From assembly GCF_000166135.1 (NCBI RefSeq), contig NC_014666.1:8570601-8634600 (forward strand): a DNA stretch of 64,000 bases, given 5' to 3'. The notes below the pieces were generated by a model. That model worked only from the letters and a program-made list of their open reading frames with translations. It had not been told where the DNA came from and made no database searches. Below are positions 10,624 through 27,473 of the stretch, piece after piece; within the stretch, counting starts at the first letter, position 1; every line of letters begins with the position of its first letter. Made by a program: the position numbers and the translations under genes. Source of the DNA: Pseudofrankia inefficax (GTDB lineage Bacteria > Actinomycetota > Actinomycetes > Frankiales > Frankiaceae).

Positions 10624-12093
10624 GTGACCGCGCCGGAAGGTACCCCGTCGCCCGGCCCCGAAGGCACCATCAATCCGGCAGGATCCGTCAACGGCGAACC
10701 GGTGGCCGTCGCGCTCGGAAACGCCTCGTTGTTCGGCGTCGGCTACCTGATGCTGGGCCGCCGCGGACTCGCGGCGCTGACCGGGCTGGTCACGCTGGTC
10801 CTGCTCATCATCCTTGGCACCGCCGCGCGGACCCTCTGGTTCGAGATCGTCGTCCTGCTGTGGTGGCTCACCCTCGTCGCGCACGGCTGGTACCTGGCCG
10901 GCGGCTGGCCACCGCGGCGCCGGCGGGCCGGGAGCAGAAGTCGCCTCGTCCTCGGCGTGGCCGTCTTCCTGCCGGTTCTGGTCGCCTTCGCACTGCTGCG
11001 CCTCCACGTCGCCTCGATCAACGACCGGGTCGCCGCCGCGGTCCGGTCCGGCGACTGCCGACGCGCCACCGCCGCCCTGGCCGGCCGCTGGGCGGGCGAC
11101 TATCTGGCGGACGCCCCCGGCGCCGTCCGCGGCGCGGGCACCGGGCGGGTCTGCGGCAGCCTCGGGGACACCGCGGGCCGCCTCGACGCGGTCGTCACGA
11201 ACAGCGACCTGAGCTCGCTACCACCGGCGCTGACGAACCTTTCGGCCGTTCTCGCCGCGTGGCCCGACCACGCCCCGATGGTCCTGCGGACCCTCGACGA
11301 CTTCCTCGGCCGGTTGCCGCTGTCGAACCCCTGCGACACCGTCAAGGTCCTCGACACCCTCGGCGCCTACAGCCCGCGGGACGCCGTCCGAGACCAGGCG
11401 GGGGCCGCAGTCCCCCGTCTCACTCCGCCGGCGCTCCTCGGCTGCGGCGACCGCGAGTTCGGTTCGAAGGACTGGAACGGCGCGAAGGCCTCCTACCAGC
11501 GGCTGCTCGACGACTACCCGAAGAGCCCGCTGGTCCCCAAGGCCTTCGGCGGACTCGTCGCGGCCAACCGGGCGATCGAGCTGGATCACGTACGCGCCGC
11601 CCTGGGCGCCGGTCCGGACACGTCCTACTGCTCGAACCCGGTCACCTGGAGCGGCGCGACCCCGTATCGCGGCGCCTCGCCGAACCGGGCTGTGCTCCAC
11701 GGCCAGAACACCTACACGAACCAGCTGCCGGGCGACTGGCTGGTCGACGACGTCGCCAAGGCTCCGCTCGTGATCTGCGTCAGCCCGAAGGAGTACGGGG
11801 ACCTCGTCGAGAGCTGCGACTACGACTCCGACGCGGTGACGAGCGTCTTCGGAACCAGAACCGTCTCGTTCCACAAGGTCGCCGTTCCGATCCGCGTGGT
11901 CGAGGTCCTGACCGGCCACGTCGTGGCCGACCTGCGCGTCCAGGTCACCGGCGCCAGCTGCCCGAGCGTCATCGACTACACGACGTTCGGCTACTTCGAC
12001 ACCGGCCCGTCCCCGGACATGTACGTGGACGTGCCGGACTCCGACGTCAGCGCCGCCGTCCGTGACGCCCTGGCCCCGATCATCAACCCCTGA
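10624..12093 (+). CDS. Membrane protein of unknown function
   Basis: A 489-aa protein I cannot name. Residues 1-30 are Pro/Gly-rich. Hydrophobic segments lie near 33-45, 50-68, 73-92 and 105-125, so the N-terminal third is membrane-embedded. The rest is a soluble domain with a TPR-like stretch around 270-330 (GDREFGSKDWNGAKASYQRLLDDYPKSPLVPKAFGGL), then a beta-rich C-terminus with several Cys. The GTG start lacks a strong ribosome site, so the N-terminus is uncertain. It converges with the TIR-WD40 gene with 50 bp between stops. This suggests a surface or stress sensor, but no function is claimed. Confidence 0.7.
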   Translation: MTAPEGTPSPGPEGTINPAGSVNGEPVAVALGNASLFGVGYLMLGRRGLAALTGLVTLVLLIILGTAARTLWFEIVVLLWWLTLVAHGWYLAGGWPPRRRRAGSRSRLVLGVAVFLPVLVAFALLRLHVASINDRVAAAVRSGDCRRATAALAGRWAGDYLADAPGAVRGAGTGRVCGSLGDTAGRLDAVVTNSDLSSLPPALTNLSAVLAAWPDHAPMVLRTLDDFLGRLPLSNPCDTVKVLDTLGAYSPRDAVRDQAGAAVPRLTPPALLGCGDREFGSKDWNGAKASYQRLLDDYPKSPLVPKAFGGLVAANRAIELDHVRAALGAGPDTSYCSNPVTWSGATPYRGASPNRAVLHGQNTYTNQLPGDWLVDDVAKAPLVICVSPKEYGDLVESCDYDSDAVTSVFGTRTVSFHKVAVPIRVVEVLTGHVVADLRVQVTGASCPSVIDYTTFGYFDTGPSPDMYVDVPDSDVSAAVRDALAPIINP

Positions 12094-12143: not shown

Positions 12144-13751
12144 TCAGAGTCGCCACAGTCGCACTGTGTGGTCATTGCCCGCACTGGCCAGGAACTCCCC
12201 GTTCGGGGAGAAGGCGACCGCCCGCACCGCGGCCCCGTGGTCGGCCAGCGGGGGACCGACCGGCAACGGACTGGCGGGCTCCGTAACGTCCCACAGCCAC
12301 ACCGTCCCATCGGCGCCGCCACTGGCGAGAAGCCGCCCGTCCGGCGCGAAGGCCGCCGCCAGCACCGCGCCGGCGTGGCCCTGGATAGGTGGCCCTGCCG
12401 GCCGCGGCCGGGCCGGCGCGCTCACGTCCCACAACCGCACCGCCCCGTCACCGCCGCCGCTGGCGAGAAGTTGCTCCCTGGGCGAGAACACCACCGCCTG
12501 CACCGACGTCCCGTGGTCCGCGAGCGGCTGGCCAGCCGCTCGCGCCCGGCTCGGCTCGGCCACGTCCCACAGCCGCACGGTCCCGTCGCGGCTGCCGCTG
12601 GCGAGGACGTCACCCCGCCCGGAGAAGGCCACCGACCGCACCCAGCCGGCGTGCCCGACGAGAGGAGCACCGCACGGCTTGGGGCTTCGTGGCTCAGCCA
12701 CGTCCCACAGCCGCACGGTCCCGTCGTGGCCGGCGCTGGCCAGAATTCGGCCGTCACCGCTGAACGCGACCGACAGCACCCAGTCCTGGTGACCGTCGAG
12801 CGGCGCACCGCACGGCCGCGGCGGCCCGGGCTCCGCCATGTCCCACAGCCGCACCGTTCCATCAGCTCCGGCGCTGGCCAGCAGCTGACCGCCCAGGGCG
12901 GCCGTCACCGCGAGCACCCAGTCGGTGTGGCCCACCAGGGACTTTTTCCACGGCCCTGGCCGGGGCGGTTCCGTCACGTCCCACAGCCGGATCGTTCCAC
13001 CGTTCTCAGGCCCGGCCCCGCCGCGGCTCGCACCCGCGAGCAGGCGGCCGCCCGCGGCGAAGGCCACCGCGTAGACCAGGTCGTCCGGGCCGGCGAGTCG
13101 CTGCCCGGGGTGTCGCGGGCCGGTCAGCGGCGTCTGACCGGGTCGCGACCGGCCGACAGCGGGCTGGTCGGTCAGCCCCTGCGGCGGGTCGCCGCCAGCG
13201 GAAATCGGGGCCGAGGCCACGCTTCGTGGTGCCGCGTCATTGGCCGTGACCGGGAAGGCCGGTGCGACCGCCCGCGACGACGCTGGGAAGAGCGGAGGCG
13301 TCGCTGGTTTGTCCCGGCCGGCGATCGCCCCGCGAATCGCGCCGAGCAGCCGCGTACGCGCGGCGTCCGGTCCTAGGCCGAAGAGGTCGATCGACACGAT
13401 CGTTCGTAGCAGCCCGGGTCGCGGGCAGTTCTCGACCCGGACGGGCACCAGCCTCCGGTCGAATCCGGTCGGGTCCGCGGCCCGCGCCGCGTGCCATTCG
13501 CCGACACCGAAGACCGAGCCGAGGTAGGCCTCGGAAAGGATCGCGATCGTGCGGTGCGCCGTCCGGATGCCCTCGTCCATCCGGACCGACCAGTTGGAAC
13601 CGGCGACCGAGTCCCACGCCTGGAGCAGGACCCGGTAGTCCGCCGCCTCGAGCTGCCAGGCAACCCATTCGGCCCAGGCCTGGTCACTGGGACCGTACGA
13701 GATGAAGAAGTCCGCCGCCTCCGGGCCGGTTCTGTCCCCCGCGACCGCCAC
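12144..13751 (-). CDS. TIR domain fused to seven WD40 repeats
   Basis: A 535-aa two-part protein. Residues 10-150 form a TIR domain: DFFISYGPSDQAWAEWVAWQL, then SVRMDEGIRTAHRTIAILSEAYL, with a Glu in GVGEW at the place of the NAD-cleaving Glu of TIR NADases. A Pro/Ala-rich linker follows (about 160-210). The rest is seven WD40 repeats ending in variants of VRLWDV, enough for one complete propeller. Six consecutive DNA spacings are exactly 138 bp, meaning the repeats are recent copies. It is the last gene of the SIR2-STAND operon, 123 bp after the STAND stop. The likely role is a recognition propeller controlling a TIR effector. Confidence 0.88.
   Translation of the reverse strand: MAVAGDRTGPEAADFFISYGPSDQAWAEWVAWQLEAADYRVLLQAWDSVAGSNWSVRMDEGIRTAHRTIAILSEAYLGSVFGVGEWHAARAADPTGFDRRLVPVRVENCPRPGLLRTIVSIDLFGLGPDAARTRLLGAIRGAIAGRDKPATPPLFPASSRAVAPAFPVTANDAAPRSVASAPISAGGDPPQGLTDQPAVGRSRPGQTPLTGPRHPGQRLAGPDDLVYAVAFAAGGRLLAGASRGGAGPENGGTIRLWDVTEPPRPGPWKKSLVGHTDWVLAVTAALGGQLLASAGADGTVRLWDMAEPGPPRPCGAPLDGHQDWVLSVAFSGDGRILASAGHDGTVRLWDVAEPRSPKPCGAPLVGHAGWVRSVAFSGRGDVLASGSRDGTVRLWDVAEPSRARAAGQPLADHGTSVQAVVFSPREQLLASGGGDGAVRLWDVSAPARPRPAGPPIQGHAGAVLAAAFAPDGRLLASGGADGTVWLWDVTEPASPLPVGPPLADHGAAVRAVAFSPNGEFLASAGNDHTVRLWRL
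12148..13000 (-). repeat. WD40-encoding tandem repeats with exact 138-bp period
   Basis: On the + strand the conserved block RYGTCCCACARCC (encoding the LWDV part) begins at 12286, 12424, 12562, 12700, 12838 and 12976, each exactly 138 bp (46 codons) apart. The intervening sequence differs mainly at surface-loop positions. Perfect phase over six units implies recent duplication or gene conversion. Confidence 0.85.
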
Positions 13752-13874
13752 AACCCGGATCTTCGCACCTTCTCGCCCGGCCGGCGGCGTACTCGGTTCC
13801 GGTGCGCCTGCGGCGTCGCCAAGCTGACGTCCGAGGTCGCCGGCGCAGCGCCGAGCACAGCGCCCGGCCTGTGA

Positions 13875-15902
13875 TCAGCCGTCAGGATCGATACTGGTCA
13901 GATCCTCCAGCAACCGGCGGGCCTCCGTACGCCGATGCGGCATGAGGGGCGGGTCCGCGCCGCGTAGCGCGCTCGTGAGCAGCGCGACGGCGCGCGTCCT
14001 GTCTCCGGTCAGCGCGGCGACGATCCCGGCCCGCCACTGGACCACCGGGTCGGCGGGCGCCGCCTCGAACGCCGCGTCGGCCTCCGCCTGAGCGTCCGCG
14101 AGGCGATCGAGCCCGGCGAGCGCCCGGGCGCGGGCCGCACGCAGCACCGGCTGGCCCGCGGCCGCCGGCTTCAGCCGGGCAAGGATGTCCAGGTCCTCCA
14201 GCGCGGCGGCGAACTCACCGAGCTCGACGCGCACCTCCCCCCGGCCCGCCAGGGCCTCCACGGCATCGGGGGCGTAGCTCAGCACGCTGGCGTAGACCCC
14301 CTCGGCGCTGCGCAGCTGCCCCGCCTGCCACAACGCGTCCGCCAGCTCCGTTCGCAACGTCCGATCGCCCTGCAGGCGCGCCACGGCACCCTCCAGGTCG
14401 ACGACGGCCTCGTCGTGGCGGCCTTCCCGCAGCAGCACCTGGCCGACGGCGGCGAGCAGCATGCCCACAGCGGTGGAATCCTGCATCAGCTCGTAGAGTT
14501 CGGCGCCGCGCCGGTAGCGCCGCGCGGCCTCCTCGTACTTCTCGGTCTGGAAGGCCAGGTCACCGAGGAACGACTCCCCCTCCGCCTGGGCTCGCAGGTC
14601 GCCCTCGGCGAGGCGGACCGCCTCCAGCGCGTGCTTGCGCGCGAGGTCCAACTCGCCATCGGCGAGCGCGGCCTCCGCGGCGCGCAGATAGTCGACCGAC
14701 CGGCCGTCGGGCAGCTCCGTCTCCGAACGCCGCCAGCCGCCCCGCACCGGTTCGATCAGCCGGTCGTGGGCCAGCTCGAACCACCGGGAGCCCGAGCGCC
14801 ACTCGGCCTTCAGGATGTGCCGGTCGACGAACGCATGGGCGACGGCGTTGGGCATGCCGGCGGTGCGGCTCGCACCCTCGTAGACCGTGTTGCGGGTCCC
14901 CAGCTCGGTGATGAACGTGCGCCCGAGCCAGTCGCGCAGAGCCGACTCGGGGAGCCCGTGGTCCCGTGCGACATACGCGACGGCACGACCGCAGAACTCC
15001 GCGAGAATGCGGTTCAGGTCGCCATAGCTCTGCAGGTGCTCGCCCGTGATCACCATCGTGTCCGGCGGCAGGGCGTCCCACAGCGCCGAGCACACCACCT
15101 GCAGCTGAACCGCCTCGACGCGGTCGGCGCGTACCACCGTCGTCTCCCCGGTCCGGTCCGTGAAGGCGGTGGTCCGCACATCGTCGACCAGCCGTTCGGC
15201 TACGCCGGCGCCGAACGAACGCCCCGTACCTCGCAACGGCCCGGTCGCCGCCTCGATCGCCTCCGGTACCTGGAGAGGACGCAGTTCGAACCGCGTCCGC
15301 GAGTCCCGCGAGAGCCTGGACTCATAGGGCAGCAGGCTGGCCAGGCTGTCCTCACGGACCGAGATCAGCAGCCGCAGCAGTGGCACCGCCGAAATCGCCT
15401 CCGCCAGATCGTCGATGAACTGCTCGCGATACTGCTGACGATGCGGGAAGTCGCGGAAGAGTTCCTCGAACCGGTCGATGACGGCGAGGATGGGCAGCGG
15501 GTCGCCATAGGGGTCCGTCCGGTCTGACCGTTGGCTGAAGAACTCCGCGATAGACAGGCCGGACAGATGATGGGGAGGGTCGGTCGGCGACCAGGAGGAA
15601 AGCAGCGCGAACGTGTATGGATTGTGCCGGGGCAGTGCCGCGGTCGGCACCTGTGAGGCCTGGAAGGCCCGCCCCACTGGCAGCATCTCCGCGGCCTCGT
15701 CGGGGAACTGCGCGCGCATCCCGGCCGCGACCAGCGACGTCTTGCCCACACCCGAGGCTCCGTAGAGCACCACCAGCCGGTGGCTCGACCACAGGGCCGC
15801 GAGCCGGTACGAGTCGTCGCGCCGGCCGAAGAAGAGGTCGGCGTCGTCTGCCTGGTACGAGCGCAGACCGACGTACGGCGCGCGGCGGACGGGCCCGCTC
15901 AT
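13875..15902 (-). CDS. STAND-type NTPase with C-terminal TPR-like repeats
   Basis: A 675-aa signal-transduction ATPase. The N-terminus has the nSTAND1 pattern YVGLRSYQADDADLFFGR, then Walker A GASGVGKTS (48-56) and Walker B ILAVIDRFEELF (138-149), where the usual Gln of IDQFEEL is Arg. A winged-helix-like region follows (about 250-370; FELAHDRLIEPVRGGW is typical of this family). The C-terminal 280 residues are helical TPR-like repeats. Its start overlaps the SIR2 stop by 4 bp. The expected role is a nucleotide-dependent switch that oligomerises on a trigger and licenses the SIR2 and/or TIR effectors. No own effector domain is fused. Confidence 0.88.
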   Translation of the reverse strand: MSGPVRRAPYVGLRSYQADDADLFFGRRDDSYRLAALWSSHRLVVLYGASGVGKTSLVAAGMRAQFPDEAAEMLPVGRAFQASQVPTAALPRHNPYTFALLSSWSPTDPPHHLSGLSIAEFFSQRSDRTDPYGDPLPILAVIDRFEELFRDFPHRQQYREQFIDDLAEAISAVPLLRLLISVREDSLASLLPYESRLSRDSRTRFELRPLQVPEAIEAATGPLRGTGRSFGAGVAERLVDDVRTTAFTDRTGETTVVRADRVEAVQLQVVCSALWDALPPDTMVITGEHLQSYGDLNRILAEFCGRAVAYVARDHGLPESALRDWLGRTFITELGTRNTVYEGASRTAGMPNAVAHAFVDRHILKAEWRSGSRWFELAHDRLIEPVRGGWRRSETELPDGRSVDYLRAAEAALADGELDLARKHALEAVRLAEGDLRAQAEGESFLGDLAFQTEKYEEAARRYRRGAELYELMQDSTAVGMLLAAVGQVLLREGRHDEAVVDLEGAVARLQGDRTLRTELADALWQAGQLRSAEGVYASVLSYAPDAVEALAGRGEVRVELGEFAAALEDLDILARLKPAAAGQPVLRAARARALAGLDRLADAQAEADAAFEAAPADPVVQWRAGIVAALTGDRTRAVALLTSALRGADPPLMPHRRTEARRLLEDLTSIDPDG

Positions 15903-16780
15903 GTCAGAGCCAGCAAGGACATGAGGCGAATGCAGAACTCCGACGTGGACCCCCAGAAGACCGTGACGTGCTTCTCGTCGAAGTACCGCTCGAAGTAGGC
16001 CTTGACCTGCGTCTCCAGGCTTCCGTCCCCGTTCGGGCTAGGGGTGAGCTGCACGCTGACGTGCCGGCGCAGGTGGACGGGAGCCAGGGTACGGAGTACA
16101 CCGTGCAGCAGCATCCGGAATGTCCAGTCCTCGAAGCTGTAGCCGACGAAGAGCAGCGGACGGTTCTTCAGGGCGGCGATCACCGACGTCGGAATCATCC
16201 GGCTGACGGTCGTTCGGTTCTCGGCGAGGGTGGCCATGAAGTCGAGGTGGTCGTCCTCGGTGAGCACCATCGACCGGGCCTCGGCGAGGCTTCCCTGCAG
16301 ATGGAAGACCACAGGCCGGTCGGGGTCGGCCGGGCCGAGCTCGGTGTCGGGCGCGTCCGCGTCTGGCCGCTGGCCGTCCCAGGGGCACACGAGGGCCCGG
16401 GGCTGTCTGCCCTCCTGCCGCAGGGCGGTCACCATGAAGTCGTCGTAGCTGGTCGTGACGTAGACCGCCAGGGGCAGCCGAGCCAGCAGACCGTGCGCCT
16501 GTGTCGCGTCGCCGAGGTTCGGGTAGCCCCTGGCCAGGAGCGCCTCCCTGACCTGCCCCTTGACAAAGATCGGGTCCCGCTCGACGGTCGCCGCGTACTG
16601 CATGACGCGAGGAAGATCCCGGGCCGACTCCGGAAATGGGTAACCATAACGGTCCGCCCATTCGGCCGACAGATCGCCGTCGGCCGGCAGCGCCGGGTAG
16701 CAGGCACCGGTGCCGAGGAATGGGGTGCAGTCACCGTTACGAAGCTGGGTCACGAGCTTGTCCCATGCTCGGTCGTCCAC
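15899..16780 (-). CDS. SIR2-like domain protein
   Basis: A 293-aa protein made almost wholly of a SIR2-type NAD-binding fold. Visible motifs are PFLGTGAC near residue 15 (nucleotide loop), VYVTTSYDDFM near 110, VVFHLQGS near 165 (candidate catalytic His) and LLFVGYSFEDW near 215. The usual Asn of TTNYD is Ser. In defence SIR2 proteins such a domain depletes NAD. I chose the GTG at 16780 because GGGAG lies 9 bp before it and the SIR2 fold begins there; a frame open to 17035 adds only low-complexity residues. First gene of the three-gene operon and divergent from fxsT. Confidence 0.85.
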   Translation of the reverse strand: MDDRAWDKLVTQLRNGDCTPFLGTGACYPALPADGDLSAEWADRYGYPFPESARDLPRVMQYAATVERDPIFVKGQVREALLARGYPNLGDATQAHGLLARLPLAVYVTTSYDDFMVTALRQEGRQPRALVCPWDGQRPDADAPDTELGPADPDRPVVFHLQGSLAEARSMVLTEDDHLDFMATLAENRTTVSRMIPTSVIAALKNRPLLFVGYSFEDWTFRMLLHGVLRTLAPVHLRRHVSVQLTPSPNGDGSLETQVKAYFERYFDEKHVTVFWGSTSEFCIRLMSLLALT

Positions 16781-17675
16781 GCCTGACTCCCGCCGGTCGA
16801 CCCGCGCGCCGCGCGGCGCCCCATAGTCGACGAACTGTAGTAGCGAACGCCGGGCAGCAGACCAGCGGTAGGCGGCTGGGTGTCTGTCATTCTGCCACGT
16901 CGCGCTCGCCACGGCGTGGCGTTCGCGCCATTCCGGCGGTGGTATGGCCGTACTTGTCGCGACGACGGCTCCGGTCTCACGGCGCGCGCCGTCCCACGCG
17001 GACGGCGCCGCGGCGGCCTCACTGTTGGGGCGCAATCGCGGGTGCTCACGCGCATTTTGGGCCTACCGTGCCCTGCACCGGCGAGAAACGTCATCCGCGA
17101 CGATCCGTCTCGCAAATCCAATTCAATCGGGATTGTTGCGCGCTCGTTGATGGGGGACCTGGCCGATTCCCCTACGGATTCGCCTCTCAAGGACGCCACC
17201 CGCGCAACGTCGTCAATCCCGCGATGCGGGCCGCGCGAGGCCGGGCACCGCGCGGGTCGAAACCGCCTGCCGCGTCGGGATTCTCCATCACGTCGGCTCA
17301 GGCGTGCCGCCCGCGCCCTCGTGCCACCGTCCGCACGCGTCGACGCCTCGCGACAGCCGGCCGGCGGGGCGGCGCCGGACGTTTCGACACGCAGGCACGG
17401 CCCCTGACCCTACTAGCACTCGGCGGGCACCGCCGTGCCGCAAGACCTGGACGCCGCCGATTCACCCGCTCCGACCTCTTGACCCGCCGCGACCTCTTGA
17501 CCCGCTGTGACCTGCGCATGCCGGCCAGAACTGCCGGTGCGGTCTGGCCGGCTTGCCGGGCGGGTCGGACACGGAATCCTGGACGCGGTTAGATGACCGA
17601 GCGAAGGTGTACCGGCCGGCAACCGCGACGGCATAACATCGTAGTGTCTTGAACGACGGGGTGAGAGGCGTGGCC
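16781..17675. other. Long divergent intergenic region between the SIR2 operon and fxsT
   Basis: About 890 bp with no supported gene. It has an AT-richer patch at 17090-17150 and, close to fxsT, a 16-bp sequence repeated twice (17472-17505). Regulatory function is likely because both flanking units start from it. I found no convincing -10/-35 pair. Confidence 0.5.
17472..17505 (+). repeat. 16-bp direct repeat upstream of fxsT
   Basis: CGACCTCTTGACCCGC occurs at 17472-17487 and 17490-17505, an 18-bp period, with a weaker third copy start (GTGACCTGCG) just after. Both copies contain TTGACC, which resembles a -35 element. About 170 bp before the fxsT start. Confidence 0.6.
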
Positions 17676-20225
17676 GTGAGCGTCGAATCGGTGGACCGTC
17701 CGGGCGCGCCTGGCCGGGTGCCCGCCGTGTGGGGCCATGTCCCGCAGCGGAACAAAAACTTCACTGGTCGGACGAACCAGCTCTCGGAGCTGCGCGAACG
17801 ATTGATGGCGCGACGGCCGGGGGGAAGCGCCACGGCGGTCGTCCCGCAGGCGGTATATGGCCTTGGCGGTGTCGGTAAGACCCAGCTCGCCATGGAGTAC
17901 GCGTATCAGTACGCGCACGAGTACGACGTCGTCTGGTGGGTCTCAGCGGACCAGCCGGGCCTGATCCGGGCCGGCCTGGCGGCCCTGGCCCCGCGGCTGG
18001 GGCTGACCGTCGCGCTGGACCGCACCGAGGACGCGGTCGCCGCGGTCCTCGACGCGCTGCGCCAGGGCACGCCGTTCAAAAACTGGTTGATCGTGTTCGA
18101 CAACGCGGAGCAGCCCGAGTCGCTGACCGGGCTGCAGCCGCAGGGCCCTGGCCATCTGCTCATCACGTCACGCAGCCACCGCTGGCAGAGCCGGGTGGAC
18201 ACGCTGGAGATCGCGGTGTTCACCCGCGCGGAGAGCGTGGAGTTCCTCGATCGCCGGGTGCCGGGCATCCAGCGCGAGGGTGCCGACCGCCTGGCCGAGG
18301 CGCTCGGCGACCTGCCACTCGCGCTGGAACAGGCCGGCGCGCTGCAGGCCGAGAGCGGCATCGGGGTCGACGACTATCTGGAGCTGTTCGAGGAGAACGC
18401 CAGGCAGGTGCTCAGCGAGAACCTGGTGGCCGACTACCCGCACAGCGTCGTCACCACGTGGAACCTGGCCCGGGACGCGGTCGGGCGCCAGAACCCCAAC
18501 GCGCTCGAGCTGTTGCGGCGGTGCGCGTTCTTCGGGGCGGAGCCGATCGCCCGGGACCTGTTCAGCAACGGCAAGTTCGCGCTCGACGGCGATATCAGGG
18601 ACTTCCTCTCGAACAAGTACGAGCTCGCCCGGGCCACCCGGGAGCTCGGCCGTTACGCACTCGCGCGCATCGACAACAGCGCCAACACGCTGCAGGTCCA
18701 CCGGCTGATGCAGCGGCTCATCCGGGACGACCTCAGCGAGGCGGAGGCCGAGAGGATGGAGCACGACGTGCACCTCATCCTCACCGTCGCCGACCCGAAC
18801 GATCCCGAGAACGTCGACACCTGGCCCGCCTACGCGGATCTCTACGGCCACGTCGTCGCCTCGGGCGTGGTTCACTGCCAGAACCCCGAGTCCCGAGAGC
18901 TTTTCATCAACGTCGTGCGGTACCTCTACCGCTCCGGCGCCTTCTCGGCCGGCCTGGCCGAAGCGGACCATGCGATCGAGCACTGGACCCAGGATGCCGG
19001 TGCGGACGATCCGAACGTGCTCGTCATGTGCGGCATCAAGGCGGACCTGCTGTGGATGACCGGGCGATACGCGGAGGCGTATGAGCTGCGCCGGCCCACC
19101 CTGGAGAGCATGCGCAGGACGCTGGGGCCCGAGCACGAGGCGACGCTGATCGTCCTCAACGGCCGTGGGGCCGACCTACGAATCAGAGGAGAGTTCCGCG
19201 CGGCCCTCGAGCTGGATGAGGAGTCGGTGCCCCTGCATCAGGCGGTGTTCGCCGAGCATCCGTTCACCTTCTACGCGCTGAACAACCTGGCGATCGACTA
19301 CGGCCTGAACAGCCGGTATGAGCGCGCGCTGGAACAGCGCCTCCAGAACTACGAGGCTCTGCGCATCTTCTACGGCGGGGACGACCACGTGCTGGTCGTG
19401 ACCGCAAAGAGCCAGCTGGCCCAGGACCAGCGCCAGGCCGGTCTGTACCTGCAGGGCCGCGAGACGGCGGAGCAGGCTTACAGGCTGTGCAACGAACTGG
19501 TCGCGCGCGGAAGACTTTTCGAGTTGCACCCCTTGACGCTCGCGATCGCGCGCTGCCTGGCGGTGAACCGTCGCAAGGCCGGCGACTTCCCGGGCGGCTT
19601 GGTGCTGGCTCGTGAGGTCTACGACAAGTACACGAGAATTTTCGCGCCGGACCACCCCGATCGGCTGGCCGCCGCCATCATCCTCGGCAACGCGCTGCGC
19701 GCCGAGAATGAGACCGACGACGCGGTCGACCGCATCGAACGCACTGTCAGCCGATACGGCGAGGCACTCGGCGCGGACCATCCTTATACGCATGGCAACC
19801 TGTTGAACCTCGCGCTCGTCCGCCGGCAGGAGAACAATCTCGCCGAGGCGCGCGAGCTCCTCGAGAAGGCCCTGGCCGGCCTCACCCGGAGCCTTGGCCC
19901 CGAGCACCACTACACGTTGACCTGCGTCACGAACCTCGCGACGGCTGTGTCCGAGAGCGGCGACGTCGAGGCCGCCCAGCGAATGGGCGAGAGCACGCTA
20001 ACTCATTTCCGTAGCCTGCTCGGCCCGAACCATCCGCACACTCTCGTGTGCGCCACGAATTATTCCCTCGACCTACGCCAGCTGGGCCGAGCCGCTGAGG
20101 CGGACGATCTGTACGCCGAGACGATCGACCGGTACCAGAAGGTTCTGGGGAAAGAGCATCCGGACGTCCTCGCGGCGATGAATGGCGCGCGCCTCGACTT
20201 CGACTTCGAGCCGCCGGCTCTATAG
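17676..20225 (+). CDS. fxsT: FxSxx-COOH system NTPase/tetratricopeptide protein
   Basis: An 849-aa protein of the FxsT type. After WGHVPQRNKNFTGR come an NB-ARC-like ATPase with Walker A GLGGVGKT (62-69) and Walker B NWLIVFDNAEQ near 135, then ITSRSHRW and the GLPLAL-like motif DLPLALEQAGAL near 220. The second half is a long array of TPRs of the Kinesin-light-chain type (for example LGPEHHYTLTCVTNLATA and LGPNHPHTLVCATNYSLDL). The GTG at 17676 has GAGAGG seven bases upstream and is preferred over TTG 17649. It converges with the fxsA-fxsB-HExxH operon. Its exact job in FxSxx systems is not established. Confidence 0.88.
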   Translation: MSVESVDRPGAPGRVPAVWGHVPQRNKNFTGRTNQLSELRERLMARRPGGSATAVVPQAVYGLGGVGKTQLAMEYAYQYAHEYDVVWWVSADQPGLIRAGLAALAPRLGLTVALDRTEDAVAAVLDALRQGTPFKNWLIVFDNAEQPESLTGLQPQGPGHLLITSRSHRWQSRVDTLEIAVFTRAESVEFLDRRVPGIQREGADRLAEALGDLPLALEQAGALQAESGIGVDDYLELFEENARQVLSENLVADYPHSVVTTWNLARDAVGRQNPNALELLRRCAFFGAEPIARDLFSNGKFALDGDIRDFLSNKYELARATRELGRYALARIDNSANTLQVHRLMQRLIRDDLSEAEAERMEHDVHLILTVADPNDPENVDTWPAYADLYGHVVASGVVHCQNPESRELFINVVRYLYRSGAFSAGLAEADHAIEHWTQDAGADDPNVLVMCGIKADLLWMTGRYAEAYELRRPTLESMRRTLGPEHEATLIVLNGRGADLRIRGEFRAALELDEESVPLHQAVFAEHPFTFYALNNLAIDYGLNSRYERALEQRLQNYEALRIFYGGDDHVLVVTAKSQLAQDQRQAGLYLQGRETAEQAYRLCNELVARGRLFELHPLTLAIARCLAVNRRKAGDFPGGLVLAREVYDKYTRIFAPDHPDRLAAAIILGNALRAENETDDAVDRIERTVSRYGEALGADHPYTHGNLLNLALVRRQENNLAEARELLEKALAGLTRSLGPEHHYTLTCVTNLATAVSESGDVEAAQRMGESTLTHFRSLLGPNHPHTLVCATNYSLDLRQLGRAAEADDLYAETIDRYQKVLGKEHPDVLAAMNGARLDFDFEPPAL

Positions 20226-20228
20226 AAC

Positions 20229-20269
20229 GCCTGGCTGGCCGCTTCTGTTCAGCCCGAGACCAGCCAGGC
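20229..20269. terminator. Hairpin between convergent fxsT and HExxH genes
   Basis: GCCTGGCTGG (20229-20238) pairs with CCAGCCAGGC (20260-20269), a perfect 10-bp stem with a 21-nt loop. It covers the end of the HExxH gene and the downstream edge of fxsT. No T-run. Confidence 0.45.
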
Positions 20270-22126
20270 AGCCACCGCCTCAGGATCGGCTTTCTCCCCG
20301 CCGAGCGCGCCGATCCGCTGGCAGACCGCCCTAATGACCTCCGGACGTGAGACCAGGGTTCGCTGATCAGCGGTGCCGAGACGCGCGTGGCTGATCGCGA
20401 GGCCGGTCCATGCGTCAGGCCGCTCGCGGCCGGCCGCGATTTCGGCGTGGTAGGCCCGCGCGGCCTCGGCGTAGTCGCCCGACATCAGTAACAGGTCGGC
20501 GAGCGCCGCGTTCGGGACCGTAGCGCCGAGACGGTTCGGCTCTTCGCGCAGCCGTGCGAACCGCCCGGGGTCTACGAGTCGAAGCCGGGCGAGCTCAAGG
20601 TGCGGTTCCGGCAGCTGACCGCGCGGTGAAGCCACGATGGCCGCCGAGATCGTGCGTGCATCCGCGTTGGGCTGCCCCGCTAGCCACGACCGCGCCGCCG
20701 CCGTGACAGAGGTCGGGTCGGGTCGCAGGTTTCGCAGGCGCCAGGCCGTCGCGTGCGCGGCACCGATATCCAGCGCCAGCTCACGCACGACCGCTGGTAC
20801 AGGATCCTCGGACCAAGCACCGGCGCTCGAGGCCATTCCCGCGAGGAACGCCGTTCCGAGCTCCGTCAGCATTCCGGACGAGCCCAGCACGCCAAGCGTC
20901 TGGGACACCGCCTCACGCCAGCGGGCGAACTCGAAATCGGCCACCTGACGGCTCGTGCCCCGAGCGACCAGCCGATGGTCTCGCCAGAAGGACGTCACTC
21001 CCAGATAGGCGTACGCGCCCTGCAGGAGCCCGCCGATCGGCCGTGGGTCCGCACGCCAGGGAGCGTAGTAAAGCGTCTCGCCTTCCCGGCACAGATCGAC
21101 CATGTCGAGGAGCGCGAGGAGCTTGGCGTGCTGGGACTCGTGCACCAACGTCGCAGCGAATACGAGCCCGTTTCCCGGGGGCGTGAGGCCGACGGCACCC
21201 ACCGCATCGCCGGACGACGCGCTGACCGCCCACTGTCCACGGCCTGGGTCGAGGGGCACCAGGCAGCGCAGGCCGGACGCGATCGCCGCGGCACGATTCT
21301 CACCTGGTCTGACGAGTATTTTCCAGGCCTCGTCGAGGCAGCGTTGCCACGCCGCCACGTCCGCCGCCGAAAGCCGGTCCGCCGCGTCCAGACCTTCGAG
21401 GTGCCGAAACGGGTCGAGATCATCGACGGCGAGCTCGATCGCGTGGTCGTCCGCGACGCTGCGCAGGCGCCGCAGCGCGAGCCACGATGCGTCAGCCCGC
21501 GGTTCGGCCGACGCCTTCCACCAGACAGACGCCCCGCCACCCGAGTCCTTTCCATGACCCAAGTCGAGGACAGGAATCACGACGCTTCCCGCGTCCTCCC
21601 TCACCACGACGATCTCCACCCGGCCGGTGCCAGCAGGTCCTCGCAGACGCGCCCAGCCGTCGGGAGCGGCAACGCGAACGAGACCGGCCGTCGGAAGCAT
21701 CACCGCCCTGTCGCGCACCCTGACCGACGTCTCGAACGACTGGCCGGCCCGCAGCGCGGCGACAGCGGCGATGGCCCCAAGATGCCCAAGGTCCGCCTCG
21801 CTCCGCGTCGCATCCGGCTCGGGTCCGACCAACTGCCGGAGAGTCCGCACCGCCCAGGCCCCGACGTGCGGATAGAGCAGTACCTCGGCGACCGCGTCCG
21901 GACTGGCTCTACGGGCCGCGGCAAGGGTCTCAAGGGCCTCGTCCAGTCCGGCCGCGACATAGGCGTGAGGGGCTTGCGCTCTCGCCACCTCAGCCACCGA
22001 ATACACCATCAGAATGCGCTTGCTCAGCTGCGTGGAACGCAGTACCGCGACGACTTCAACGCTCCCGGCACCGGCCGCCAGCTCGTCGAAATGTGCTTTG
22101 GCGAGTCGATGCGTGATCGGTTGCAC
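20249..22126 (-). CDS. HExxH-motif protein, putative alpha-ketoglutarate-dependent peptide beta-hydroxylase
   Basis: A 625-aa protein carrying HESQH at residues 329-333, inside AATLVHESQHAKLLALLDM. This matches the HExxH domain family encoded beside FxSxx peptides and now named as peptide beta-hydroxylases; the two His and the Glu would bind the metal. The N-terminal 300 residues are helical with no named domain. Residues from about 470 look like a TPR-type tail (ALADLLLMSGDYAEAARAYHAEIAAG). The GTG start is 8 bp after the fxsB stop, without a strong ribosome site, so translation is probably coupled. Likely substrate: FxsA. Confidence 0.85.
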   Translation of the reverse strand: MQPITHRLAKAHFDELAAGAGSVEVVAVLRSTQLSKRILMVYSVAEVARAQAPHAYVAAGLDEALETLAAARRASPDAVAEVLLYPHVGAWAVRTLRQLVGPEPDATRSEADLGHLGAIAAVAALRAGQSFETSVRVRDRAVMLPTAGLVRVAAPDGWARLRGPAGTGRVEIVVVREDAGSVVIPVLDLGHGKDSGGGASVWWKASAEPRADASWLALRRLRSVADDHAIELAVDDLDPFRHLEGLDAADRLSAADVAAWQRCLDEAWKILVRPGENRAAAIASGLRCLVPLDPGRGQWAVSASSGDAVGAVGLTPPGNGLVFAATLVHESQHAKLLALLDMVDLCREGETLYYAPWRADPRPIGGLLQGAYAYLGVTSFWRDHRLVARGTSRQVADFEFARWREAVSQTLGVLGSSGMLTELGTAFLAGMASSAGAWSEDPVPAVVRELALDIGAAHATAWRLRNLRPDPTSVTAAARSWLAGQPNADARTISAAIVASPRGQLPEPHLELARLRLVDPGRFARLREEPNRLGATVPNAALADLLLMSGDYAEAARAYHAEIAAGRERPDAWTGLAISHARLGTADQRTLVSRPEVIRAVCQRIGALGGEKADPEAVAAWLVSG

Positions 22127-22134
22127 CGGCTCGT

Positions 22135-23385
22135 TCAGCGCCGCCGCCGCGGTAGGAGAGCGACCTCGCCGGCAATACTGTCGCGAATATGGCGGATGAG
22201 TGTGAGCAGATCAAGGCAGTAGACGGAGGGGTTGTCAAAGCCCGTGTCGGCCCGATAGCGATGCGGGTAGAAGCCCCCACCGCAGACGTCGCGTACCTCG
22301 CAGGCGCGGCATTCGGCTGCTATACCCTCGATGCCGGCCTGGCGAGCCAGGATTGCCGGATGTCGCAAGGCCAGATCCAACGGCCCGGTCATCACCGACA
22401 GGCCCGTCACCGCCGCGCCGTCGTAGGCGACTTTCAGAGCATCAGCTTGCTCCAATGTCCCGTCGCTCTCCACCACGAGCACACTCACCGGCGTCAGCCC
22501 TACCGCTTCCGTCGCGCTGTGGCCACCGAACAGCAGATGAATGATCTCCGAGAACAGCCGGACGTTCGGACGACGGGCCGCTCGGTACCAACGGTCGAAG
22601 ACGGCGATCAGCCAATCCGCGTAGGGGGTGGCCGGATCGTCCGGCAGCCGGCCGGGTGGCGGGGCAGCCCAGGTGCCGTGGGGAAGCAGAAAGTCAATCT
22701 GGGGCGGCGAGTACCTGAGCAGTTCCTCGTAGACGGAGACCGGCTCGTTGACCAGGTCGACGACACACAGCAGGCCGGCGAAGAGCTCGCGGTGAGGCGG
22801 CGCGGTCAGCCGTTCGAGAGCGGCCGCCACGCGAGCATGACTCGCGCGGCCGGCGCCGGTGACGCGATGCCGGTCGTGAGCGGCGGCGGGGCCGTCGAGG
22901 CTGACCCCCACCTGGACGCGGTGCTCCCGCAGCACCGTCAGCATCCGCTCATCCAGGAGCAGGCCGTTGGTCTGTACGACGAACTGCGGCGTGACCCCAG
23001 CGGGGATCTCGGCACGCAACGTCGTCAGCGCCTCGCCCAGCCAGGCTGCCCCAGCCAACAATGGCTCGCCGCCATGAAGGATCACCCGGACCGACGACAG
23101 CTGATGGGTTCGGGCGTGCTCGCCGATGCGACGCGCGGTCTGCGCGAGGATGTCGACCGGCATCACGGCGGGCTGGCGCCGCCAGCTTTGGTCGGCCATC
23201 TCGTAGACATAGCAGTAGTCGCAGGCAAGGTTGCAGCGACTCGCCACTTTGAGCACGAACTGGCTGAACGGTACGGGGGCAACGCGGCCAGCTTTACCCG
23301 GGGGCAGGCCACCTGACGGATCTCGGCGTTCAGCGGGCCGGGCCGCCCCGCCGTTGAAAAGTGTCACTGGCGCCACCTCGGCCAA
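22135..23385 (-). CDS. fxsB: Radical SAM/SPASM peptide maturase
   Basis: A 416-aa radical SAM enzyme. The cluster motif is CNLACDYC (Cys51, 55, 58). LHGGEPLL near 110 and VGVSLDGPAAAHD near 165 are typical of SPASM peptide maturases. C-terminal Cys residues in ECRACEVRDVCGGGFYPHRY and SVYCLDL fit an auxiliary cluster. FxsB proteins crosslink residues in the C-terminal motif of FxsA to give cyclophane-type rings. The start is uncertain: TTG 23385 is 24 bp after the fxsA stop, and GTG 23376 is an alternative. Middle gene of fxsA-fxsB-HExxH. Confidence 0.9.
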   Translation of the reverse strand: MAEVAPVTLFNGGAARPAERRDPSGGLPPGKAGRVAPVPFSQFVLKVASRCNLACDYCYVYEMADQSWRRQPAVMPVDILAQTARRIGEHARTHQLSSVRVILHGGEPLLAGAAWLGEALTTLRAEIPAGVTPQFVVQTNGLLLDERMLTVLREHRVQVGVSLDGPAAAHDRHRVTGAGRASHARVAAALERLTAPPHRELFAGLLCVVDLVNEPVSVYEELLRYSPPQIDFLLPHGTWAAPPPGRLPDDPATPYADWLIAVFDRWYRAARRPNVRLFSEIIHLLFGGHSATEAVGLTPVSVLVVESDGTLEQADALKVAYDGAAVTGLSVMTGPLDLALRHPAILARQAGIEGIAAECRACEVRDVCGGGFYPHRYRADTGFDNPSVYCLDLLTLIRHIRDSIAGEVALLPRRRR

Positions 23386-23409
23386 CGCCCGGCTGAACTC
23401 GCGGCCACA

Positions 23410-23664
23410 TCAGATGGACGACTGGAAGCCGGCGACCGGATCGCGCAGCTCGCGCGCTTCCTGAACGTACCGGTTCAGAAAAGGGCGCAGGGGCGCATTC
23501 GATGGGACTTCTTTTCGGTTCAGCCGGCTCCAAAAACGCCGGAAGAAGGATTTCCACCCCGGTTTTTCATTCGGCGCGGCCCGGAGCAGCGACGGCACTC
23601 GCGCCCAGTCGACATTTGAAAGATCGAAGACGAAGGTCTCGATATCGGACGGAGACTCGCTCAC
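23410..23664 (-). CDS. fxsA: FxSxx-COOH precursor peptide
   Basis: An 84-aa peptide ending exactly in F-Q-S-S-I-COOH, the defining FxSxx rule of this RiPP class. The N-terminal half has ETFVFDLSNVDWARVPSLL, a probable leader recognition segment. The middle is basic (KSFFRRFWSRLNRK). The tail is ARELRDPVAGFQSSI, giving the core. It is longer than the FxsA peptides I know. I chose GTG 23664 because GGAAGGA lies 6-7 bases before it; an ATG at 23679 lacks a ribosome site. Directly followed by fxsB, its predicted modifier. Confidence 0.88.
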   Translation of the reverse strand: MSESPSDIETFVFDLSNVDWARVPSLLRAAPNEKPGWKSFFRRFWSRLNRKEVPSNAPLRPFLNRYVQEARELRDPVAGFQSSI

Positions 23665-26127: not shown

Positions 26128-26439
26128 TTAGGCCGAGCCGACTACGAAGGTGCCGATGACGGTCACGCCGTCCAGCTCGTAGACCGGGACCAGGGTTCGC
26201 TCTCCGGCCGCCGCCCGCGCCGCGGCTTTCTTCCTCCATTCGGCGAACTCAGCGGGCGGCAGACCGGTGCCCTGCGCAGCGTCAAGTTCGGTCCGCCTGA
26301 CGTAGCCGCGCTGCCCGTCCCTGAGCCCAGCCGAGATCAGGTCCGGCCATTCGCTTCGAGGCACGGCGTGCAATCCCCCTCCGTAGGTCTCTCCGGCAGA
26401 GTTCGTCGGCCAGACTGGTCCTGACTCACCATCGGACAT
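26128..26439 (-). CDS. Small hypothetical protein
   Basis: A 103-aa soluble protein I do not recognise by name. It has a Gly/Ser-rich start, RGYVRRTELDAAQG in the middle, an Arg/Ala-rich helix (EFAEWRKKAAARAAAG) and an ending LVPVYELDGVTVIGTFVVG that looks like a conserved beta-hairpin. The layout resembles short actinobacterial hypotheticals, and sequence quality suggests a real gene. It starts next to the eroded 3' end of the recombinase, inside the element. Confidence 0.6.
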   Translation of the reverse strand: MSDGESGPVWPTNSAGETYGGGLHAVPRSEWPDLISAGLRDGQRGYVRRTELDAAQGTGLPPAEFAEWRKKAAARAAAGERTLVPVYELDGVTVIGTFVVGSA

Positions 26440-26449
26440 AGCGCCATTG

Positions 26450-27202
26450 TCTACACCCCATCCCGCTGTGCACGGTCTCCTCGCCGACGCGGTGCGCCGC
26501 CCCAGCGCCAGGCACCGGGTCGCCGTGATCAGTTGGATCGGGCACCTGACGGCGGATGCAGCGGTCGATTGCGCGCTCGGCCGGGCGGCCGAACCGAACG
26601 ATCCGCTGTTTGCGGCCCTTGCCTGTCACGAGCAGTTCCCGCGAGACCAGATCCATGTCGGTGTTCGCGGGGTCCTCTTCGTTGTAGCGGATGCCCGCCA
26701 TCTCCGACGCCGGATACCGGTGGCCTTGAAGAGTTCGATAATCGCCGCGTCGCGGCGATCTACGAATGTCGTCCCCTTGCACGTCTTCGCCAGCATCGTC
26801 AATTCTTCGGCGGTGACGACCAGGACGGCCTTCTCCCCAACCTTCGGCAGAGACATCCGCGCCATCGGGCTCGTGACTTCTTCGTCGTCCGCGAGCCACT
26901 TGAAGAACTGCTGGAGCGCGCGGTACTGGTTGTTGGCGTAGCTGTCGCTGTAGTGGTCGAGCAGCCAGGCCATCCAGGTGCGGACGTCGTCAGCCGAGAC
27001 GTCCAACCAGTCGTCACGGCTCTGTATTCGCCAGCAGGTGGCCACCCGCGAACCACGGGGCCGCTTCGACGTAGGTCCGCACGGTCTTCGGGGAGTTGCC
27101 CTCGGCAGCCAGGTGCAGCCAAACGGAAGTGGTCATGGACTGGAACGGGCCAGCGATCAAGATTTTGGCTGCCGTGGCCGAGGCACAACCATGAGAGTTC
27201 AC
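26450..27202 (-). pseudogene. Tyrosine recombinase (phage-type integrase), frameshifted and truncated
   Basis: Three frames together read as one tyrosine recombinase. Part 1 (from 27202) has AAEGNSPKTVRTYVEAAPWFAG, the SAM-like N-terminal domain. Part 2, after a shift near 27030, has VSADDVRTWMAWLLDHYSDS then YANNQYRALQQFFKWLADDE and, near the catalytic Arg, IIELFKATGIR. Part 3, after a shift near 26710, has ASEMAGIRYNEEDPANTDMD and ELLVTGKGRKQRIVRFG. The C-terminal HxxR and Tyr motifs are absent. Inactive, and located beside the tRNA-Phe 3' end. Confidence 0.85.
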
Positions 27203-27273
27203 CTCTGCGCGGACGTCGTGCTACGGGTCCGGCATACCGGCCTAAGCACGTATCCGTAGGTCAGAGGTTATGA

Positions 27274-27317
27274 GTGGGCAGGGGCGGGGTCGAACCGCCG
27301 ACCTTCCGCTTTTCAGG
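27274..27317 (-). repeat. Second copy of the 44-bp tRNA-Phe direct repeat
   Basis: The 3' half of the intact tRNA-Phe, matching 24183-24226 at 41 of 44 positions. This is the expected attachment-site core of the neighbouring element. Confidence 0.85.
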
Positions 27318-27348
27318 CGGACGCTCGTACCGACTGAGCTACCTGCCC
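27275..27348 (-). tRNA. tRNA-Phe (anticodon GAA)
   Basis: Complete cloverleaf on the minus strand. Acceptor GGGCAGG pairs with CCTGCCC; D arm GCTC/GAGC; anticodon stem TCCGC/GCGGA with loop CTGAAAA (GAA at 34-36); T arm GGCGG/CCGCC with TTCGACC loop; discriminator A. CCA is not encoded. Confidence 0.96.
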
Positions 27349-27358
27349 CAGACGACAC

Positions 27359-27390
27359 ATCCGGGCGGCCAGCGAGCTGGCCGCCCGGAT
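27359..27390. terminator. Perfect 15-bp hairpin between two tRNA genes
   Basis: ATCCGGGCGGCCAGC (27359-27373), GA, then its exact complement (27376-27390). It lies between tRNA-Asp and tRNA-Phe. No T-run, so it could be a terminator or a processing signal. Confidence 0.6.
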
Positions 27391-27398
27391 GATGTGCG

Positions 27399-27473
27399 CG
27401 GTCCCGACGGGATTCGAACCCGCGACCTCCGCCTTGACAGGGCGGCGTGAACTCCAGGCTTCACCACGGGACC
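27399..27473 (-). tRNA. tRNA-Asp (anticodon GTC)
   Basis: Complete cloverleaf. Acceptor GGTCCCG pairs with CGGGACC; anticodon loop CTGTCAA gives GTC; T loop TTCGAAT; discriminator G; no encoded CCA. Encoded just upstream of tRNA-Phe on the same strand. Confidence 0.96.

Follow-up and report, generated by a model that had tools for sequence, protein, structure and literature searches.

Do the SIR2, STAND NTPase and TIR-WD40 genes that lie beside an FxSxx peptide cluster in Pseudofrankia inefficax belong with that cluster, or are they unrelated neighbours? The question is raised by a 64,000-nucleotide stretch of the genome (G000:C1:8570601-8634600 of an 8,815,781-bp contig), which is called the window below. 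One group of its genes encodes FxsA, a precursor of a ribosomally synthesized and post-translationally modified peptide (RiPP), its maturase FxsB, a HExxH hydroxylase and the NTPase FxsT; the other encodes a SIR2 protein, an nSTAND1 NTPase and a TIR-WD40 fusion. It is close to certain that fxsA, fxsB, the HExxH gene, fxsT, nSTAND1 and SIR2 belong together as a single module conserved across two families of actinobacteria; the version in the window is derived and carries a TIR-WD40 gene besides. The first-pass annotation of this DNA had proposed a single system comprising all of these genes, and linkage across 59 loci bears it out for SIR2, nSTAND1 and the Fxs genes but not for TIR-WD40 as a core part.

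Conservation of the module

Linkage was assessed in 59 SIR2 loci with fetched DNA, comprising 10 of the Frankia family (f1), 48 of a second actinobacterial family (f17, possibly Streptosporangiaceae, which has 73 SIR2 loci, 25 of them known by coordinates only) and 1 of family f19. SIR2 has nSTAND1 no more than 2 kb away in 54 of these loci and FxsT no more than 3 kb away, also in 54; the HExxH hydroxylase stands up to 9 kb from it in 47 and FxsB up to 9.5 kb from it in 40. The set is biased against linkage because every f17 locus without a listed FxsB nearby was included, and some of the misses are contig ends. Chance juxtaposition of two neighbours was rejected, given linkage in 54/59 loci. 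The arrangement is not a matter of chance, since further genera and a second family carry the module too. Within f17, FxsB occurs within 15 kb of 58 of the 73 SIR2 loci, 44 by coordinates (among the matches listed, plus five positions added from the class-sample FxsB search) and 14 of the remaining 29 by sequence.

The order sample gives the same picture. SIR2 is present in 8 of its 35 genomes at 10 loci. At each of them nSTAND1 is at most 2 kb and FxsT at most 3 kb from SIR2, and 9 have the HExxH gene and FxsB in the region; the remaining one (L057) begins at the edge of a contig, and FxsB and HExxH are present on another contig of that genome. Two of the 10 loci are in the window's genome, and both SIR2_2 matches of that genome belong to such loci. 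The second module copy (L053, G000:C1:8107000-8126900) has an intact SIR2 and a 1397-amino-acid DUF4062-type WD40 protein. A scan of named genomes returned two relatives of the window SIR2, from Parafrankia colletiae (L003) and from a Chloroflexota contig (L004). The former (genome G024, counted once, as L059) carries SIR2, nSTAND1, FxsT, HExxH, FxsB, FxsA and a TIR-WD40 gene within 11 kb, in another order.

Independent occurrence of the two gene sets in most genomes, the outcome that the first-pass annotation had named as fatal to a single system, was not seen for SIR2-nSTAND1. Among 393 genomes of the class sample, 18 of the 19 that carry the SIR2 also carry FxsB, which occurs in 78 overall (Fisher p 7e-13; such tests take no account of relatedness). 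Among 200 genomes of f17, FxsB occurs in 122 and SIR2 in 41, and all 41 SIR2 genomes have FxsB. The dependence is one-sided, as 60 of the 78 class genomes with FxsB lack this SIR2. The system is also patchy, since in a phylum sample of 296 genomes the SIR2 profile matched only the window's genome at E 1e-25.

Gene clustering of 52 regions (L098, which overlaps L097, and L109 were omitted) recovered FxsT in 46, SIR2 in 43, nSTAND in 42, HExxH in 37 and FxsB in 35, the sixth family, MFS-type in the two members examined, being present in 14. Motif checks and distance correlations used the same 29 of the 59 loci, a set that leaves out L109. The Walker A motifs of nSTAND1 and FxsT, the HExxH motif, and the CxxxCxxC motif and four C-terminal cysteines of FxsB are intact in 29/29 loci, including the window. 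The distance correlations among the five proteins are 0.73-0.89, which is expected for physically linked genes and is alone no proof of function.

The commonest layout has SIR2-nSTAND1 divergent from fxsT, and fxsT convergent with HExxH-fxsB; in L055 and L059, SIR2, nSTAND1 and fxsT are co-directional. Where found in Frankia-family loci, fxsA precedes fxsB or, in L060 and L061, separates it from HExxH; many f17 loci have it in the gap between SIR2 and fxsT, where it shares the strand of SIR2 and lies immediately upstream of that gene. By the strict FxSxx motif, 13/59 loci have an fxsA-like ORF (open reading frame) immediately before SIR2 and in its orientation; this filter missed the FxsA of the window and those of L054, L055 and L059. 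A relaxed scan of 40 f17 gaps found 15 that pass a loose motif; in three of these, L171, L172 and the first of L174, the peptide has a short extension past the tail. With 11 variant tails recognized by eye (AGFSAEI, AAFDASI and similar) and L097 from the strict scan, about 27 of the 40 gaps hold an fxsA-like ORF.

Direct joining of parts was also seen. L108:7690-10383 encodes an 897-amino-acid fusion of NB-ARC, DUF7779 and SIR2_2, the first two of which are domains also found in FxsT. In L172:9520-11637, an FxsT-NTPase match is followed by a SIR2 match 154 bp away on the same strand, within an open frame of 856 amino acids. The SIR2 domains of both fusions lack the catalytic residues.

Gene organization of the window

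All seven genes named in the first-pass annotation were recovered in place by ORF and domain searches, with the domains it had given them. The left arm, TIR-WD40, nSTAND1-TPR and SIR2, is on the minus strand, and the right arm consists of fxsT (+) facing HExxH-fxsB-fxsA (-). The SIR2 gene (15899..16780, -) encodes a ThsA-like SIR2_2 protein of 293 amino acids (PF13289, E 5.3e-27) with replaced catalytic residues; a longer TTG start at 17035 is possible. The core nSTAND1 gene (13875..15902, -; PF20703, E 1.9e-35) encodes an NTPase with tetratricopeptide repeats (TPRs) at its C-terminus. As had been read, it overlaps SIR2 by 4 bp and is separated by 123 bp (13752-13874) from the TIR-WD40 gene (12144..13751, -), a lineage-specific addition in which an N-terminal TIR_2 domain (E 9.1e-33) is fused to a WD40 propeller, forming a putative NADase/sensor. 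The divergent region between SIR2 and fxsT (16781..17675) is likewise present, and its length is 895 bp instead of the 890 bp given before. Its sole match at E <0.001 to the gap of the nearest relative is 120 bp adjoining SIR2. Unlike many f17 loci, the window has no fxsA-like ORF that we could see within this gap.

The core fxsT gene (17649/17676..20225, +) encodes an NB-ARC/DUF7779 NTPase with kinesin-light-chain-like TPRs, identified by Pfam and by NF040586 (907 bits, cut-off 300). It converges on HExxH-fxsB-fxsA, as had been proposed, with a spacing of 23 bp to the HExxH gene. The latter (20249..22126, -) encodes a stand-alone aKG-HExxH peptide beta-hydroxylase with an intact HESQH motif (TIGR04267, 171 bits, E 2.2e-50) and, like fxsB (22135..23385, -; TIGR04269, 498 bits, cut-off 370), which encodes the radical SAM/SPASM cyclophane-forming maturase, it belongs to the core.

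The remaining core gene, fxsA (23410..23664, -), encodes a precursor with the C-terminus AGFQSSI-COOH, whose last five residues, FQSSI, fit F-x-S-x-x-COOH. It scores 18.5 bits against TIGR04268 across its last 22 residues, below the cut-off of 28. Related FxsA-like peptides pass in L053 and L104 (48 and 52 bits) and fail in L054 and L099 (16.9 and 15.5). Its identification as FxsA is therefore based less on this model than on the tail motif, the position ahead of fxsB and the homologues.

The window's flanking genes (P450, TPR-membrane, PanE, XylA-like) were considered as parts of the system but had no match above 35 bits in 16 regions, which extend just some kilobases past the module; in these they do not accompany it. 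A 489-amino-acid protein (10624-12093) that converges on TIR-WD40 gave a single weak TPR match and no family. On the other side, 3-4 kb from fxsA, broken tyrosine-recombinase-like ORFs (26426-27473; weak Phage_int_SAM_4, 0.0023) lie by tRNA-Phe and tRNA-Asp, and are likely the remnant of an integrating element.

The TIR-WD40 gene and the loss of SIR2 catalytic residues

The catalytic sites of SIR2 were placed at TTN and HG by alignment with ThsA. Both the Asn and the His are kept in 51 of the 59 homologues. The window SIR2 reads TTSYD and FHLQGS (LQG), with Ser and Gln replacing the catalytic Asn and His of TTNYD and LHG. L054 has Thr at the Asn site and keeps the His, and L055 and L059 keep the Asn and have Tyr at the His site. 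These four, here called type A, are the loci with TIR-WD40, and they make up exactly one SIR2 clade (support 100/100). The substitutions indicate at least two separate catalytic losses within it. The dN/dS ratios (nonsynonymous over synonymous substitution) of the type-A SIR2 genes within the clade are 0.15-0.32, values that are approximate because dS is high (0.75-1.4), and the proteins are still under purifying selection.

What the lost residues might mean was judged against characterized proteins. Among the 9 matches of the SIR2 profile to solved structures, three are ThsA and two are KomC, which is called an NADase; the best, 7uxt, is named just 'USG protein', and one KomC entry is the H146N form. 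In Avs5 (PMC12931631), N110A abolishes immunity, as does Ala or Gln at the HG position, while Asn there works. Since Ser and Gln stand at these Avs5-critical positions, the window SIR2 is very probably inactive, and probably a pseudo-enzyme; for the Tyr variants in L055 and L059, activity loss is uncertain. The proposal of two NAD-directed effectors in the window is thus unlikely, as its SIR2 has lost both NADase residues.

TIR-WD40 was found at 4 of the 10 Frankia-family loci, the window included; L057, one of the ten, is truncated at a contig end. In the fetched f17 regions, about 10 kb on each side, the listed matches include none to the window TIR. It adjoins nSTAND1 in the window and L054 and lies beyond fxsA in L055 and L059. 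Similar TIR domains are present in 32 of 34 order genomes, with 18 in the window's genome; among the 14 of these 18 that were listed, only the window's lies within 15 kb of any of the genome's three FxsB matches. In G005 and G024, the best match is a TIR other than the copy at the locus. With this low share of family loci, variable position and many paralogues, TIR-WD40 was rejected as a core part, contrary to the first-pass annotation. The EW position of the TIR domain, whose Glu before the Trp of helix C we take to be catalytic, is kept in all four (the window, L054, L055 and L059). In our reading, TIR-WD40 was recruited, perhaps on two occasions, by loci in which SIR2 activity was gone or declining.

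Other loci have other WD40 partners. In type-B Frankia-family loci, a DUF4062-NB-ARC-APAF1_C-WD40 protein takes the place of TIR-WD40; its domains were checked on L060 (12862-16980), and cluster members occur in five loci. L062, which has no SIR2 match and has nSTAND1 with FxsT, encodes a 2036-amino-acid WD40 protein with an N-terminus that is TIR-like by eye, and residues 1-300 of this protein match the FxsC regions of L135 and L136.

A possible mechanism and its rivals

What might such a module do? As a whole explanation, we give depletion of nicotinamide adenine dinucleotide (NAD) gated by the peptide a probability of about 0.5, judged from the sequences. Going by the protein families, FxsB would form a cyclophane by cross-linking the Phe of the FxSxx tail in FxsA, and the HExxH enzyme would hydroxylate the peptide. 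Once finished, the C-terminal peptide would serve both FxsT and nSTAND1 as the ligand of their TPR arms, and its binding would set these STAND NTPases to an 'off' or 'armed' state. A trigger, e.g. phage infection, would disturb this state, upon which the NTPases would oligomerise and switch on an NAD+-cleaving effector, leading to growth stop or cell death. The effector in most loci would be the intact SIR2. In the window, the decayed SIR2 would be retained by selection, probably as a scaffold or a subunit binding NAD or ADP-ribose, and NAD+ cleavage would most likely have passed to TIR-WD40.

The TPRs of FxsT match those of kinesin light chain (E 1.3e-13), a receptor of short linear peptides, and this likeness supports TPR arms that read a peptide. 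The SIR2 matches to ThsA and KomC, together with the 51 homologues that keep both residues, support the NADase logic. Tentatively, and at rather less than even odds, we propose a RiPP-gated switch in which a cross-linked, hydroxylated intracellular peptide is read by two TPR-STAND NTPases that hold or release an NAD+-cleaving SIR2 or a recruited TIR. If true, this would be, to our knowledge, the first immune system with a radical-SAM-made peptide controlling NAD depletion. The position of fxsA upstream of SIR2 and a STAND NTPase, and the fusion of FxsT-type and SIR2 domains, lead to the testable idea that a peptide controls NAD-directed immunity, and the module suggests one self-contained immune or self-destruct system with a control peptide. 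Within the window's clade, SIR2 decaying where a TIR joined would be a possible effector replacement within one module.

Several observations weigh against peptide-gated NAD depletion or the unity of its parts. nSTAND1 is not within 2 kb of SIR2 in L146 (contig end), L153, L164, L165 and for the second SIR2 of L172, and FxsT is not within 3 kb in L109, L153, L154, L164 and L165; in L153 both are present but farther from SIR2. SIR2-like and nSTAND genes occur without Fxs genes in L004 (Chloroflexota, a 10.9-kb contig) and L109. SIR2 is optional, because nSTAND1 stands with FxsT in 10 of 34 FxsB regions without SIR2, which were hand-picked from the class-sample list and are not a random set; SIR2 therefore seems to have been added to a wider fxsA-nSTAND1/fxsT module. 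At E 0.01, PADLOC matched neither FxsT nor nSTAND. Nor is the decay of SIR2 tied to TIR alone: beside the other four SIR2 with lost residues (L057, L108, L109 and the second SIR2 of L172) we saw no TIR-WD40. TIR-WD40 is abundant, so its placement in the window could be incidental. Finally, an MFS-type family lies near the module, beside nSTAND, in 14 of 52 SIR2 loci (e.g. L096:12296-14017), and such a neighbour fits an exported peptide over an internal ligand.

Two side observations concern these loci. L004:6305-10801, from an Oscillochloris metagenome-assembled genome, holds SIR2-like, nSTAND and WD40 matches together, with the SIR2 residues likewise replaced. The SIR2-less L110 encodes, at 17852-19345 near FxsB and FxsT, an EAD2-VMAP-M0-VMAP-C protein, a link to VMAP ternary systems.

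The MFS-type protein is a candidate peptide exporter, and with it comes the rival that the module is a secreted-peptide system, a bacteriocin or kin signal, with FxsA exported by MFS, FxsT and nSTAND1 as regulators or receptors, and SIR2 for immunity or response. MFS_1/MFS_3 domains were assigned by Pfam on two of the 14, L096 and L099; MFS proteins also occur in the SIR2-less L110, L115 and L118, and an ABC-transporter ATPase lies 3.6 kb from fxsA in L054. A 2020 eLife study (PMC7159879), which describes peptide-processing genes coupled to AP-ATPases, predicts that the processed peptide is a toxin or a signal. Against it, most loci do not share any one family of transporters, none was matched among the scanned window proteins, and FxsA has no export signal obvious by eye. 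We consider a secreted peptide unlikely.

A more doubtful rival still would make SIR2 a deacylase or an ADP-ribosyl processor that modifies the peptide or switches FxsT/nSTAND, and not an NADase. Three of the nine structure matches are named only NAD-dependent protein deacetylase, and SIR2 is co-directional with fxsA in f17. Yet the five ThsA and KomC structures are the larger share, the SIR2 neighbours are STAND NTPases, and the four type-A loci have lost SIR2 residues with the FxsB and HExxH motifs intact. We hold it very improbable that an ordinary FxSxx cluster and an unrelated SIR2-STAND-TIR defence operon were merely joined in a tRNA-associated island: the tRNA genes and broken recombinase-like ORF nearby and the place of TIR-WD40 outside the core set would suit such a history, which is largely refuted for SIR2-nSTAND by an FxsT that stays near SIR2 in 54 of 59 loci, unaccompanied, where this was checked, by the genes that flank the module in the window, and by the f17 fxsA often found immediately upstream of SIR2, and which is possible for TIR-WD40.

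Comparison with known systems

No paper on the SIR2/STAND/Fxs combination, none on FxsB with a cyclophane and none testing the role of an FxSxx peptide was found in the open literature, most subscription journals lying outside the search. SIR2 has 0 mentions in the main text of PMC7159879, and in the accessible part of PMC8195603, which names nSTAND1, its single mention concerns another system.

Four known kinds of system or protein come nearest to these loci. As in the window, Avs5, which acts against jumbo phages (PMC12931631), places a SIR2 effector under a STAND NTPase. Avs5 has SIR2 and ATPase in one protein, whereas in the window they are separate ORFs with an overlap, the NTPase is of the nSTAND1/AP-ATPase type and the FxsA pathway is added; the accessible text of the Avs5 account makes no mention of a modified peptide.

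Thoeris consists of ThsA (SIR2-SLOG) and ThsB (TIR), and a ThsA-type SIR2 and a nearby TIR protein are also present in the window. The window SIR2 stops after its SIR2 domain, and its PADLOC match to ThsA extends over positions 12-219 of 478, leaving the SLOG part unmatched. Unlike Thoeris, the window has STAND and RiPP genes. Apaf-1-like bacterial proteins (DUF4062-NB-ARC-APAF1_C-WD40) have their likeness in the WD40 partner of the type-B locus L060, and the TIR-WD40 of the window differs from them in lacking NB-ARC. No VMAP, vWA or MoxR of a VMAP ternary system was found among the window proteins scanned.

The closest relatives are the FxSxx-COOH systems (TIGR04268, TIGR04269, NF040586), with which the window has FxsA, FxsB, a HExxH-family protein and the AP-ATPase-TPR protein FxsT in common. 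In the canonical locus L136, FxsB is fused to an inactivated hydroxylase and is accompanied by FxsC (TIR-like) and a ParA-TIR-NB-ARC-TPR FxsT. FxsC gave no match among 8 window proteins scanned, against 234/232 bits in L136. In the window, the hydroxylase and FxsB are separate proteins and FxsT lacks the N-terminal ParA-like and TIR domains that the Streptomyces-type FxsT has. What is new in comparison with the known FxSxx peptide/AP-ATPase systems is the addition of nSTAND1 and SIR2 to the module.

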